35,783 nucleotides of DNA, taken from contig JAOQAF010000082.1 in the NCBI GenBank assembly GCA_025963735.1, positions 1 through 35,783 of the forward strand, read 5' to 3'. Of this stretch, positions 8,130 to 13,631 are shown one piece after another (within the stretch, counting starts at the first letter, position 1; every line of letters starts with the position of its first letter). The position numbers and the translations under genes were made by a program. Source of the stretch: Bacteroidota bacterium. Lineage in GTDB: Bacteria > Bacteroidota > Bacteroidia > B-17B0 > Aurantibacillaceae. The notes below the pieces were generated by a model. It was not told the DNA's origin. It made no database searches and saw only the letters and a list, made by a program, of their open reading frames with translations.

Positions 8130-9065
8130 TTAATAAAGGAATTCCTTTATGGAAGGATCCAGCCTGTTCAAATCCGGCGCCGGATTGGAACGATGAAACT
8201 GTTTTAGCTCATCGTTAATTTGATCAACGCTTTGACTAATTTTTTCGTAAGTGTATTGCTTTTTAATTTTCACTGTGGAGTTACCATACGTTTTTGGAAC
8301 AATCTTTTCACCTTTGTCTTTGGCGGCTAAGTCTGCAAGAAATGTTGGATTGCACATGAAAAACAAGGCGGTACCACCGGCGGGTAGAGGGGTTACATTA
8401 ATAGGCATGGTGTAGGAAGTAAGGTTGGAATTTTTTTCTTTTACACAATAAGGGAAAGGCCCTTTTAACTGATGTCCGTACTTGTTTTTTATTACCACTG
8501 CCATTTCGCGAACCGGATTTCCAACCTCTACTACTTTTCGGGCCGAATCTTCCTTTACAAATCCGATGGAAGAATTATATCCGTAATCATGCTCGGCCAG
8601 TAAATAAAATTTTTCAGTCATTGTAATTGAAGGATCAATGTTAAGATTAGAATCGAGAAAAATACCTGTTCTGGTGCCATTTAATAAGCTATCAGAGCTA
8701 TTACTGAATATAAAATATACTTTACAAAATGTCAGATAGTCCTTATAAGCATGGTAGGTATTGATATTTATAGCGAATTGTTCCTTTTCTTTTTCAAGTG
8801 CAAGCTCAATCTTTCCCTGTGTGCGTAAAGCATCAATGAGTTTGCGGCTGGTTTTTAAACGAACAACCAGTGCGCCTTCTTTCAATTGGTTGATTTGCCA
8901 TGCAGCAATGATGGATTTCTTTTTTCTGAATTTTTCAAACTGCTCCGGATCTTTATAGTCAGCAGATCCATGAATGTTCTTTGAATCGTTATCGCTTTGC
9001 GACATTGCCAACATGGAGGATATAACCAGTAAAAAAGTTATTAATTTATTTAACGCCGGCGCCAT
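8130..9065 (-). CDS. Secreted hypothetical protein overlapping metG
   Basis: A 311-residue protein from ATG 9065 with signal peptide [21 protein letters not shown] longer frame reaches 9095, but residue 11 of that frame gives the proper signal peptide. The mature part is charged and mixed alpha/beta, with a basic helix near the start ([19 protein letters not shown]); no lipobox, catalytic motif or repeat was seen. No family recognised. Its start lies 20 nt inside the end of metG in another frame (both read the same GGCGCCGGCG run), suggesting translational coupling, though a functional link with tRNA charging is not implied. Its last codons overlap an 18-bp palindrome (8133-8150). Confidence 0.75.
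8133..8150. repeat. 18-bp perfect palindrome at a convergent gene end
   Basis: ATAAAGGAATTCCTTTAT is its own reverse complement. It sits between the desaturase stop and the last codons of the convergent secreted protein gene. Being AT-rich and without a T tract it would be a weak bidirectional terminator; a protein-binding site is the alternative. Confidence 0.5.
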
Positions 9066-11091
9066 TTTCAATTTGGTTTTTTGTAGGGGAAACAAAGCTT
9101 AATTCACCCTTGACGTTTTCGGCCATTAAAATCATTCCCTGACTTTCAATACCCTTAATTTTACGGGGCGCCAGGTTTGCGAGCATAATTACTTTTTGTC
9201 CGATAATGTTTTCAGGTTTGTAATAAGCGGCAATACCACTTACAACGGTTCGCGTATCTATGCCTGTGTCGAGAGTTAACTTTAAAAGTTTATCTGTCTT
9301 GGGAACCGCTTCAGCCGCGGTAATGGTGGCCACCCGAATATCCATTTTAGAAAAGTCGTCGAACGTAGTTTCTGTTTTAACGGGTTCCACCTGCTTTTCA
9401 ATTATATTGGCTTCTTTACTTTTTTGCAGTTTTTCTAATTGCTTTGCTATTTCATCATCATCTATCTTCGCAAATAGAATAATATTATCCGCACTTATTT
9501 TGTGCCCTGCCGCAATGTTATTTGTGTTCTTACTGCTGTTCCATTTCAGTTGCGGCATGTTAAGCATACTGAATAATCTTTTGCTGGTAAAAGGAATGAA
9601 TGGTTCGCATACAATGGCAAGGTTCGCGGAAATCTGCAAGGCAACATTCATAATTGTTCTAACCCTCTTTTCATCGGTTTTAATTACTTTCCAGGGTTCC
9701 TGCTCAGCAAGGTATTTATTTCCTACACGGGCAAGGTTCATCATTTCTGAAAGCGCTTCCCTGAATTTAAATTTTTCAAGTGCGGCCGATATTTTTCCGG
9801 GAGTTTTTGCAATTTCATCTAATACCAAAAGGTCTGTTTTGGTGTACTCGCTAACTTCAGGTACAATACCATTATAATTTTTATTGGTTAATACAACCAC
9901 GCGATTAATAAAATTACCAAGTATATCTGCAAGCTCGCTGTTATTTTTTGTTTGAAAATCTTTCCATGTAAAATCATTATCCTTGGCCTCGGGGGCATTG
10001 GCACACAATGAATAACGCAATACGTCCTGCTTGTCCTTAAATTCAAGCAAGTATTCATGCAGCCATACCGCCCAGTTGCGTGACGTAGAAATTTTATCGC
10101 CTTCCAGATTTAAGAATTCGTTGGCCGGAACATTATCGGCAAGTATAAATTCACCGTGCTCCATTAACATGGCAGGAAAAATAATACAATGAAATACGAT
10201 ATTATCTTTACCTATAAAATGTATAAGACGCGACTCTTCGCTTTTCCAATAGCTTTCCCAGGTTTCGGGTAAAAGTTCTTTAGTGGCAGAGATGTATCCT
10301 ATTGGAGCGTCAAACCAAACATATAATACCTTTCCTTCAGCCCCTTCAACCGGTACGGGAACGCCCCAATCCAGATCACGTGTCATGGCCCTTGGTTGTA
10401 AACCGTCTCCGCTGTCAAGCCAGCTTTTACACTGACCATAAACGTTAGTTTTCCAGTCTTTATGTTTTTCTAAATAATCTTTAATTTTTGGTTGTAATTT
10501 ATCAAGAGGTAAAAACCAGTTCTTTGTTTTTTTTAATACCGGTTTACTTCCACTCAAGGTGGATTTAGGGTCTATTAAATCGGTAGCGTTTAAAGAAGAC
10601 CCGCATTTTTCGCACTGATCGCCATATGCATTTGGGTTAGCGCATTTCGGACAGGTGCCAACAATATACCTGTCGGCCAGAAATTGCTGAGCGCTTTCAT
10701 CAAAATATTGTTCGGTAATCTGTTCGGTGAAACTGTTTTTGTCGTAAAGTTTTTTAAAAAAATCTGACGCCGTTTGACTGTGTACTTTTGAAGATGTTCT
10801 TGAATAAATATCAAATGAAATCCCAAATTCATTAAAGGCGTCACCCATTATTTTGTGGTACTTATCTACTACTGCCTGCGGTGTTGTATTTTCTTTTTTC
10901 GCTTTAATGGTTATAGGAACACCGTGCTCATCACTTCCGCATATAAACTTCACATCGTGACCAATGCTTCTAAGGTAGCGAACATAAATATCCGCGGGTA
11001 AATAACAACCCGCCAGATGACCTATATGAACAGGCCCGTTGGCATAAGGAAGAGCAGCTGTAACAAGGGTTCTTTTAAATTGTGAAGCCAT
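9046..11091 (-). CDS. metG: Methionyl-tRNA synthetase
   Basis: Charges tRNA-Met with methionine in the cytosol. The class I signature HIGH is present (PVHIGHLAG, residues 20-28), with KISTS in place of KMSKS ([10 protein letters not shown]). A CPKC...CEKC zinc knuckle (in [20 protein letters not shown]) lies in the connective domain, followed by the anticodon-binding helical domain. A C-terminal EMAP/Trbp111-like tRNA-binding domain ([14 protein letters not shown] to the end) is included, so this is the long dimeric form of about 681 residues. ATG 11106 would add five residues; [11 protein letters not shown] at 11091 looks the more natural start, but the choice is not firm. A TATCTTTA -7-like box (11181-11174) lies upstream. 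Confidence 0.95.
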
Positions 11092-11173
11092 AAATTGATT
11101 ATTCAAAAACGCAGACCGTTATATTAAAATAAATGCGTTTGCTTGTGAATTGAATGTTTTTATTAATTTAGCG

Positions 11174-11181
11174 TAAAGATA
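11174..11181 (-). promoter_or_regulatory. Probable -7 box for metG
   Basis: Read on the minus strand this is TATCTTTA, one mismatch from TAnnTTTG, about 83 nt before the metG start. No clear -33 TTG is seen, so it is a weak call. Confidence 0.35.
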
Positions 11182-11224
11182 CTTATAAGTGTTGTAAAAA
11201 ATAAATTAATAAGTCATTAAAAAA

Positions 11225-11902
11225 ATGGGAAATCAAAAAGAAATCTGGAAACCTGTAAGCTTTAAAGGTAAAAAGCCGGGAGTAAAGTATGCAGTGTCAA
11301 GTCAAGGAAGATTTGGCGTTATTACTGATAAGAAAGGTAGCGTTGAGGTTAGAACTTTTCAACCACAGGACGGAGGTTACCGGTATAACTATAAACTTAA
11401 CGGTAAATCAAAAGGTTTGTTCATCTATAAAGAAGTTGCAAAAGCGTTTGTAAAAAAGTCTTCTCCAAAACAAACGATGGTTATAAGAAAAGATCATGAT
11501 TATTTAAATGATAAACCTTCTAATTTAAAATGGGTAACACCTCAGGAGCACAGAGAACATGTTACATTCAGCCCTAATTCTATACAATCGCGCAAGCGTA
11601 GGGCAATAACAATAAGCAGTACCGCAAAAGTTTTTGATGAAAAGAAAGTACTTGAAGTAAAAAAACTTATCTGGGATCCTAAAAGAAAATTAACCTTTAA
11701 GCAGATAGCGGCTAAATTTAAAGTTTCTGAAATGCAGATTTATCGTATCAAAAGCGGTGAATTGTGGTATCATGTTAAAGTGAATAATGAACCTGAAAAT
11801 AAAAAGTACAAACAAAATATTCAGAACATCGCTTTTCAGGAAAAACAAAAAGAGAAGAAAAATAAAATAACGGTTAAAAAATCAGCGAAAGCCCGCAGAT
11901 AA
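11225..11902 (+). CDS. NUMOD4/HNH-derived DNA-binding protein, apparently catalytically dead
   Basis: A 225-residue basic protein. Residues about 6-55 resemble NUMOD4 (EIWKPVSFKG; YAVSSQGRFGVI), the DNA-recognition module of homing endonucleases. Residues about 66-112 align without gaps to the HNH nuclease core of that family (VAKAF...VIRKDHDYLNDKPSNLKWVTPQEHREH), but where active members have VNH, the catalytic histidine is Arg88; Asn95 and the NLxW part are kept. Residues about 138-180 form a helix-turn-helix (LTFKQIAAKFKVSEMQIYRIKSG). The tail is strongly basic (KKSAKARR). It probably binds DNA without cutting it, as a domesticated regulator or chromosome-associated protein. It lies between metG and the LD-carboxypeptidase gene, with no intron or element boundary visible. 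Confidence 0.75.
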   Translation: MGNQKEIWKPVSFKGKKPGVKYAVSSQGRFGVITDKKGSVEVRTFQPQDGGYRYNYKLNGKSKGLFIYKEVAKAFVKKSSPKQTMVIRKDHDYLNDKPSNLKWVTPQEHREHVTFSPNSIQSRKRRAITISSTAKVFDEKKVLEVKKLIWDPKRKLTFKQIAAKFKVSEMQIYRIKSGELWYHVKVNNEPENKKYKQNIQNIAFQEKQKEKKNKITVKKSAKARR

Positions 11903-11916
11903 TTCCGGTATTATTC

Positions 11917-12813
11917 ATGATCACTGTTCCTGCCTATTTACAAGAAGGCGATTTGATTTTACTTATTGCCACCGCCCGTAAGCGCTCCAGGGAAAGCGTT
12001 CAGCCTGCCATAGACATACTTACAGGTTGGGGACTTAGGGTTGAAACAGGCCTCAATGTTTTTAAAGAGCATCATCAATTCGCAGGAAGCGATGAAGAAC
12101 GGGCGCGGGATTTGCAATGGGCACTGAATCATAAAACAGCAAAGGCTATTTTAGTAACCGGCGGCGGATACGGTACCTTAAGAATAATTGATTCCGTTAG
12201 TTTTAAAGGGATGGTTAAATATCCAAAATGGTTTATCGGTTATAGTGATGTTACGGTTATACATAACCGTCTTCATAACTTAAAAATGGCATCGTTACAT
12301 GCCACCATGGCTTTCCAGTTTCCAAAACATACTGAAGCAACACATTCGCTAAAAAAAGCATTGTTCGGAGAAAAAATAAATTATAATCTTAAACCAAATG
12401 CATTCAACAGAAAAGGCAAGGCCAAAGGAATAATTATAGGTGGTAATCTTTCACTTTTGTTTGCGGTAAGCGGAAGTATTGATGATATTTCTACCAGAGG
12501 TAAAATATTATTTCTTGAAGATCTGGATGAACAATTATATCATTTGGATAGAATGATGCTTCAGTTAAAGCGAAGTGGTAAATTAAAACATTTGAAAGGT
12601 TTGGTTGTAGGAGGCATGAGTGAAATGAAAGACAATGCCGTTCCTTACGGGAATACACCTGAACAAATAATAATGGATGCGGTAAAAGATTATAATTATC
12701 CGGTATGTTTTGAATTTCCCGCGGGACACATAGACGATAACAGGGCCATATATTTTGGTAAAAAAGTAACGATGGATATAACTGCTAAAAAAGCTATTTT
12801 AAAGTATATATAA
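11917..12813 (+). CDS. LD-carboxypeptidase, peptidase family S66
   Basis: A 298-residue serine peptidase that removes the terminal D-alanine from murein tetrapeptides during cell-wall recycling. The S66 catalytic triad is visible: Ser110 in GYSDVT, Glu201 in LEDLDEQLYHLDRM and His271 in PAGHIDDN, plus the conserved VTGGGYGTLRI turn. No signal peptide, so a cytosolic LdcA-like role is likely; substrate preference cannot be proven. It starts 14 nt after the NUMOD4-type gene and is followed 17 nt later by the alpha/beta hydrolase gene; the three may be one transcript. Confidence 0.9.
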   Translation: MITVPAYLQEGDLILLIATARKRSRESVQPAIDILTGWGLRVETGLNVFKEHHQFAGSDEERARDLQWALNHKTAKAILVTGGGYGTLRIIDSVSFKGMVKYPKWFIGYSDVTVIHNRLHNLKMASLHATMAFQFPKHTEATHSLKKALFGEKINYNLKPNAFNRKGKAKGIIIGGNLSLLFAVSGSIDDISTRGKILFLEDLDEQLYHLDRMMLQLKRSGKLKHLKGLVVGGMSEMKDNAVPYGNTPEQIIMDAVKDYNYPVCFEFPAGHIDDNRAIYFGKKVTMDITAKKAILKYI

Positions 12814-12830: not shown

Positions 12831-13631
12831 ATGATCTGCAAAACTCACGATAATCTTGACGTATACTATGAGGTACAAGGCAACGAGCAAAGCATGGAAA
12901 CCATTGTTTTTTTAAATGGATTAACTCAGTCTACCTTATCCTGGTATTTTGTACAACAGCATTTTAAAGCAGATTATAAAATAATTCTTTTAGATTTTAT
13001 TTTTCAGGGACAAAGCAGTAAAGAAGGAGAGTGGAGAAATTTTGATCAGCACGCAAAGGATGTTAAAGCTGTACTTGATAAAGAGAGTATTAAACATCCT
13101 GTGATAATTGGTTTGTCTTACGGCAGCGCTGTGGGGCAGCACTTTGCAGTTCTTTACCCAACGTATTTAAAAAAGCTTATACTTATTGCTACTTTCGCTC
13201 ACAGTACTCCTTATTTTGAAGCTATTGGTTACAGCTGGGCGCGCGCGCTCGAAACCGGCGGATATAACTTAATGCTGGATGTAATGTTGCCAAACGTATT
13301 AAGCGAAAATTATTTTAATAACCCTTTAATTCCAATTGACATGATGAAGGCTGCGAGAAAAGGACTGAATGAAAATAATGAAGCCTTAATGAAGTTGATG
13401 CATGCAACAAACGACAGGAAAGATTTCCGGCCAAGGTTGAAAGAAATTCAAGCTCCTACTTTAATAATACATGGAGAAAAAGATCTTTTGATCCCCTTAC
13501 ACATGGCAAATGAAGTACATCTGAACATTAAAAATTCTGAAATGACAATTATTAAAAAGGCAGGTCATACTTTGAATCTTGAAGCGGTGCCTGAAGTTTG
13601 CGAAGCCATTAAAAGTTTCCTTGCTAAATAA
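12831..13631 (+). CDS. Alpha/beta-fold hydrolase
   Basis: A 266-residue cytosolic hydrolase. Nucleophile elbow GLSYGS with Ser96, acid Asp218 (HGEKDLLIP) and base His246 (KAGHTLNLE) form the triad, and an FLNGLTQS loop at 27-34 gives the oxyanion region. It resembles the many 3-oxoadipate enol-lactonase or esterase-like proteins, but no specific substrate can be read from the sequence. It is probably co-transcribed with the LD-carboxypeptidase. Its stop overlaps that of the convergent bshB1 gene by 8 nt, leaving no room for a dedicated terminator. Confidence 0.85.
   Translation: MICKTHDNLDVYYEVQGNEQSMETIVFLNGLTQSTLSWYFVQQHFKADYKIILLDFIFQGQSSKEGEWRNFDQHAKDVKAVLDKESIKHPVIIGLSYGSAVGQHFAVLYPTYLKKLILIATFAHSTPYFEAIGYSWARALETGGYNLMLDVMLPNVLSENYFNNPLIPIDMMKAARKGLNENNEALMKLMHATNDRKDFRPRLKEIQAPTLIIHGEKDLLIPLHMANEVHLNIKNSEMTIIKKAGHTLNLEAVPEVCEAIKSFLAK

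Follow-up and report, generated by a model that had tools for sequence, protein, structure and literature searches.

A 225-residue protein encoded beside metG in a Bacteroidota genome (ORF 11225–11902) is an I-HmuI-like protein made of NUMOD4, HNH and helix-turn-helix (HTH) parts with a basic tail. We think it somewhat more probable than not that an I-HmuI-type endonuclease was captured within the host's class, which we take to be Bacteroidia, lost its HNH metal site and was kept as a non-cutting, site-specific DNA binder. Sequence comparison establishes the ancestry of the protein, the catalytic changes in the relatives that were read, the fixed place of the gene in its own family and its maintenance by purifying selection. 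The first-pass annotation of this DNA had proposed a degenerate homing endonuclease with its DNA-binding parts kept, and that finding is real and better founded than could be foreseen, on grounds other than those it gave.

A degenerate I-HmuI-like protein

The window, meaning the whole stretch of 35,783 nucleotides that was analysed, carries the gene and its parts at the following positions:

11225–11902, + strand: gene for the degenerate NUMOD4–HNH–HTH protein, 225 amino acids (ATG at 11225, stop codon ending at 11902; PHROG 59)
11240–11323, + strand: NUMOD4-like N-terminal segment, residues 6–33 (Pfam NUMOD4 match below cut-off; I-HmuI fold match)
11477–11560, + strand: HNH (beta-beta-alpha metal) remnant, residues 85–112 (aligned to phage HNH proteins and I-HmuI)
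11639–11758, + strand: helix-turn-helix, residues 139–178 (helices in the predicted structure; identity; dN/dS)
11789–11899, + strand: basic C-terminal tail, residues 189–225 (13 Lys plus Arg, 4 Asp plus Glu)

Taken alone, the window protein scores below the Pfam cut-offs for NUMOD4 (residues 6–33, 17.7 bits versus 23.4), HNH_3 (residues 81–109, 16.0 versus 24.8) and HTH_23 (residues 147–176, 18.1 versus 24.6). These matches are not due to chance, because three other comparisons agree with them: PHROG 59, 'HNH endonuclease', matches residues 3–217 at 8.1e-21; the 18 members of our alignment A1 contain HNH_3 in 15 cases, HTH_7 in 13 and NUMOD4 in 10 (E ≤ 0.01); and the structure of I-HmuI is recovered as described below. 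The sole PADLOC match is to a 'homing endonuclease' model. In NCBIfam, the window protein has no match near any cut-off, and the best value among the 18 members is 0.0006, to a sigma-factor model. A LAGLIDADG-type Pfam match is absent from the window protein, whose N-terminal part is I-HmuI-like instead.

I-HmuI (PDB 1u3e) is the only solved chain recovered by sequence (E 0.008) and, when the predicted structure was searched with Foldseek, the sole PDB match at E ≤ 0.001 (E 1.1e-4). A VIA superposition of model residues 6–123 on I-HmuI gives Z 10.4 and 4.1 Å over 105 residues. Confidence in the model is middling (pLDDT 69.5 overall), with blocks of 74–92 across residues 11–110 except 41–50 (61), 73–84 across residues 141–170 and an uncertain tail. 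The C-terminal HTH helices (139–149, 158–164 and 169–177) follow a linker, residues 117–135, with pLDDT below 50. The VIA matches of the HTH (Z 4 to 5) were set aside as evidence of kinship, since they reflect no more than a common trihelical fold.

Changed HNH catalytic residues and a possible order of loss

The conserved catalytic residues of I-HmuI are D74, H75 and N96, according to an excerpt of a published account (PMC12724721). The corresponding columns of the window protein hold I87, R88 and H109, so that all three catalytic residues are changed:

11483–11485, + strand: Ile87 codon, I-HmuI D74 column (Asp or Asn in 0 of 103 relatives)
11486–11488, + strand: Arg88 codon, catalytic His column, I-HmuI H75 (Arg in 5 of 103 relatives)
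11549–11551, + strand: His109 codon, I-HmuI N96 column (Asn in 5 of 103 relatives)

The relatives tallied are 103 distinct sequences, each with a family-model score of 100 bits or more; 166 matches were reduced to 107 rows by their last 150 residues, L031–L033 were removed as copies of L003, L006 and L010, and four rows below 100 bits were kept apart. Column 87 among them is Ile in 79, Leu in 18, Ala in three, Ser in two and Gly in one. Column 88 is His in 93, Arg in five, Leu in two, Cys in two and Gln in one. All eight phage relatives first compared have His at 88 and Asn at 109, and seven have Asn at 87 (Arg in one); five further phage relatives have Asn, His and Asn throughout, making 13 compared of the 140 phage records with a match. 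The four weaker matches, which come from genomes of the class, likewise carry Asp or Asn, His and Asn at columns 87, 88 and 109.

Arg88 had been read in the first-pass annotation as the mark of lost catalysis, in an HNH segment aligned without gaps. The alignment to I-HmuI is indeed gap-free over residues 80–113 and puts Arg88 in the H75 column, but the substitution is confined to a clade of five (L001–L005; gene tree 100/99), and the changes at Ile87 and His109 had been missed. The five Arg codons are AGA, CGA, CGA, AGA and CGC; from these sequences, Arg88 is a late change in that clade, retained through synonymous codon changes. A consistent loss of the histidine, which the annotation had proposed to test for, is not what the family displays, since His stands in 93 of the 103 relatives and in 21 of the 27 at the metG locus (the others being Arg in four and Cys in two). 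None of those 27 has Asp or Asn at 87, and none has Asn at 109. Their His-bearing members are thus not intact, no homologue with an intact HNH was found among the 27 read at the locus, and the idea of domestication stands on other grounds.

On a family tree built without columns 87, 88 and 109 (quickly built, and with long outgroup branches), the 103 dead-type rows lie on one side of a single branch (SH-aLRT 97); column 87 needs one change on this tree and column 109 three. The residue preceding the histidine was therefore lost a single time, and early. The distribution suggests an order of loss in which that residue went first and everywhere, Asn109 later, and His last and in some clades only. 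The HNH site of the window protein looks dead, and we infer from these columns that the protein is unable to cut DNA.

Two further forms were seen among the rows. A sister form (L042, L052, L107, L108, L109 and L114) has an insert of about 60 residues, Ala, Ser or Gly at column 87 and Asn at 109 in five of the six; it is perhaps a half-way stage of the catalytic loss. L161:568-1692 (−) is a 375-residue frame with two family matches in tandem and Leu-Leu at columns 87–88.

Selection on the HNH remnant, the HTH and the tail

Codon comparisons were made without L161 and the four weak rows. Of 36 pairs with pS < 0.6, we kept the 23 with pN < 0.1; the full set was rejected because it includes 13 distant pairs (pN > 0.3) whose low pS we attribute to saturation or chance. 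Over the 23 close pairs, most of which lie within one near-species group, dN/dS ranges from 0.007 to 0.134 with a median of 0.019. In eight non-overlapping pairs picked from these by hand, the ratio is 0.035 across the core; by part it is 0.029 (N-terminal part), 0.055 (HNH remnant), 0.018 (HTH, residues 138–190) and 0.095 (tail). Judged by these ratios, the gene is under purifying selection, the HNH remnant as well as the HTH; a test for such selection had been proposed in the first-pass annotation. Selection on the dead HNH makes it likely that this domain keeps its hold on DNA. Conservation peaks at residues 165–178, the HTH recognition part, with a mean pairwise identity of 0.70 versus 0.24–0.53 elsewhere, and the constancy of this part argues for a fixed DNA site.

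Tails of 17–113 residues with net charges of +4 to +35 occur in 38 rows (L001–L041), and those of L029 and L030 have KKAAPKK-type repeats, which we would liken to histone H1 tails. In 68 of the 69 other rows, which include the four weak matches and a few rows from the window's family, the tail is 0–29 residues long. Among the 28 ORFs of the window, this one ranks first in codon adaptation (z about 2.2 versus codons drawn from window averages). The 22 relatives compared do not share this excess (mean z −0.03, with 11 above 0), and codon usage therefore lends no consistent support to high abundance.

A fixed locus within the family

The gene occurs in a single copy in the window's genome, as a genome search found, and has the following neighbours:

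9046–11106, − strand: metG, divergent neighbour (Pfam tRNA-synt_1g, 4.4e-152)
11107–11224, no strand: intergenic region between metG and the gene, containing a TAAAGATA-type element that we interpret as the −7 box of metG
11917–12813, + strand: LD-carboxypeptidase (peptidase S66), downstream on the same strand (Pfam Peptidase_S66, 2.2e-30)
12831–13631, + strand: alpha/beta hydrolase, next gene of the run (Pfam Abhydrolase_1, 2.2e-25)

The annotation had placed the gene free-standing among housekeeping genes. The metG, LD-carboxypeptidase and alpha/beta hydrolase neighbours agree with the second half of that description, but the gene opens a run of closely spaced genes, and in the window 14 nt separate it from the carboxypeptidase gene that follows. 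The order divergent metG, gene, LD-carboxypeptidase holds in all 27 family loci read, which were chosen among the 59 matches that the window's family yielded. In the 25 of these where the spacing was measured, with start codons picked by motif, gene and carboxypeptidase gene are −13 to +14 nt apart. The end of metG adjoins a 311-residue ORF (8133–9065, −) that has no Pfam match at E ≤ 1e-5 and recurs in that place, at 35–66% identity, in most of the family loci. In nine loci, metG adjoins the carboxypeptidase gene and the gene is absent (L175, L176, L179, L180, L183, L184, L188, L189 and L193), and the gene is therefore dispensable. In one of these, L179, a stretch before the carboxypeptidase start resembles, in frame, the first seven residues of the gene product, perhaps as a deletion scar.

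A conserved upstream TAAAGATA/CAAAGATA-type element was considered as an operator. It sits where the metG −7 box would be, judged by the −7 consensus, and the operator reading was dropped because loci that lack the gene have similar elements too. The upstream region compared across loci revealed no operator at the gene's own promoter.

Outside the family, neither metG nor the carboxypeptidase gene lies near the gene in any of 13 loci from other families of the class. Some of these have shared places of their own, namely the genus pairs L148/L149 and L151/L152 and the within-genus pair L146/L154. Among neighbours, none near the gene is common across the class; the L151 alpha/beta hydrolase groups, at E 1e-6, with its counterpart in the window's family.

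Spread and history

A match at E ≤ 0.001 was found in 69 of 150 relatives tallied. Within the genus, 31 of 39 other genomes have one and in eight none was found; in the rest of the family, the count is 28 of 47. The match in one genome (G059) is weak, and that in another (G033) lies away from the metG locus. A profile search at E ≤ 1e-8 recovered 85 of 396 genomes of the class, some of the weakest matches being of the intact type, and a draw from the phylum gave 25 of 296 genomes, all 25 in the same class, the non-class share of the 296 not being given. Plasmid records yielded two weak matches of 72,556, and a viral-contig scan, whose patterns were this family's own, yielded one relative, of the dead type. 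Phage records with a relative at E ≤ 0.001 number 140, the best being 27–34% identical, and the hosts listed first for the phage relatives are Enterococcus, Staphylococcus, Bacillus and Vibrio.

Presence and absence of the gene need eight changes on the metG tree, which joins L137/L141 to the window's clade (99/99). That grouping is rejected by the carboxypeptidase (p-AU 0.001) and by the gene (p-AU 3e-8), and the metG tree is for that reason an unsafe yardstick; the metG of L137/L141 may itself have been exchanged. Neither metG (p-AU 0.066) nor the carboxypeptidase (p-AU 0.43) rejects a grouping of the Arg clade with L116. The gene and carboxypeptidase trees are for the most part in agreement. 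The gene of L178 joins L137/L141 on a long branch (96/94), and its carboxypeptidase falls within the window's genus (100/99). These disagreements make some exchange at the locus possible, and the gene trees are consistent with a history of descent with losses, perhaps with slight exchange at the locus.

A second dead HNH form in the class

A control search for HNH_3 in 149 genomes of the class returned 30 loci, five of which (L219, L220, L221, L222 and L246) had no A1 match and were left unaligned. Eight loci carry a second degenerate HNH form with Phe at the His column, Leu at 109 and an AP2-like C-terminal segment (L230, L231, L235, L239, L240:1306-1914, L241, L244 and L248, of which L240 and L241 are near copies); some have lysine-rich tails. 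AP2 exceeds the Pfam cut-off only in the relative L223, among four scanned, and L223 is 42% identical to L240. Of nine loci compared, six carry this second form behind folD, and in five a DUF6272-type gene stands beyond it. The existence of this form suggests that the class turned HNH homing enzymes into DNA binders more than once.

Discussion

The closest known likeness of the window protein is to I-HmuI and the phage HNH homing endonucleases of PHROG 59, with which it shares a NUMOD4-like N-terminus, a beta-beta-alpha HNH core and a following HTH. It differs from I-HmuI in its three changed catalytic columns, its fixed chromosomal locus and its basic tail, and we do not file it with the working HNH homing endonucleases. 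The nearest parallel in function may be WhiA, which is described, in an excerpt of the work cited, as a monomeric transcription factor combining an HTH with a degenerate homing-endonuclease domain that has lost its metal-binding and catalytic residues (PMC3781837). Like WhiA (DUF199), the window protein joins a retired homing-endonuclease domain, stripped of metal and catalytic residues, to a C-terminal HTH after a flexible linker. WhiA is derived from LAGLIDADG enzymes, whereas the window protein has an HNH fold, occurs in other bacteria, bears a basic tail and is absent from some congeners. By this analogy, it may work like WhiA without being a member of that family. Other retired nuclease relatives kept DNA binding, as with the HNH-AP2 proteins and plant AP2/ERF factors and with the Smad MH1 domain; both differ from the window protein in their DNA-binding parts.

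We propose that an ancestor within the class captured a NUMOD4–HNH–HTH homing endonuclease, whose HNH metal site would then have been lost while the protein was retained as a non-cutting DNA binder. It would bind as a monomer to one long asymmetric site: the N-terminal sheet would hold one part of the site together with the dead HNH, the C-terminal HTH, with its nearly constant recognition part, would hold another, and the lysine-rich tail would add non-specific grip. The outcome would be transcription control of genes elsewhere, since the gene's neighbours differ between families of the class, and the gene may be co-expressed with the adjoining LD-carboxypeptidase gene. Transcription control is the likeliest use because of the WhiA precedent, and the gene product would on this analogy be a domesticated transcription regulator.

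A protein of the nucleoid or of a chromatin-like kind, in which the dead nuclease anchors and the tail coats or bridges DNA with no gene-specific control, would account for the long lysine-rich tails of the 38 rows, some with KKAAPKK repeats, for neighbours that vary between families and for the window gene's top codon adaptation. We consider it unlikely, because the tails are short in nearly all other rows, the codon excess is absent in the 22 relatives and the recognition part is conserved like that of a sequence-specific protein. The gene could also be a local regulator or a passenger of the carboxypeptidase gene, translationally coupled to it and of no wider role, as its divergence from metG and its near contact with that gene would allow; yet the carboxypeptidase gene does without it in nine loci and the protein is conserved in the 13 other-family loci with neither neighbour nearby, which makes this improbable.

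The preferred reading of a retired, site-specific binder leaves an oddity, in that His88 persists in 93 of 103 relatives, which is odd if catalysis is wholly gone. It could be that most of the family still cuts, with His88 working alongside another metal ligand, and that the Arg clade is one of a few dead exceptions; N100 in all 103 relatives, His112 in 99 and the purifying selection on the HNH remnant are in keeping with this. We find it harder still to credit, given Ile or Leu before the histidine in 97 of 103 relatives, Asp or Asn in none, Asn109 in only five, and an Arg clade that retains the gene as well. Least probable is site-masking immunity, in which the dead protein would cover the target of active phage homing endonucleases and block their invasion. 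The 140 phage records with a relative (13 of them read), the retained DNA-binding parts and the dispensability of the gene would fit, but the best phage relatives are 27–34% identical, the hosts named first are Enterococcus, Staphylococcus, Bacillus and Vibrio, dN/dS gives no sign of diversifying selection, and the one relative from the viral-contig scan is itself of the dead type.

Among the matches listed from titles and abstract openings in mostly open-access literature, none describes this family, and where the libraries searched name these proteins, the label is HNH or homing endonuclease. More tentatively, and at rather less than even confidence, we suggest a class-wide family of retired-HNH regulators, a counterpart of WhiA with an H1-like tail in the window's family, in a class that made this transition at least twice, judging by the second dead family behind folD. 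The relatives, the empty loci and the outgroup of phage enzymes can all be used for experiments. If our reading is true, a set of the class's 'homing endonucleases' would be DNA-binding regulators, and bacteria would then offer, with WhiA, two cases in which a selfish nuclease became a DNA-binding protein.
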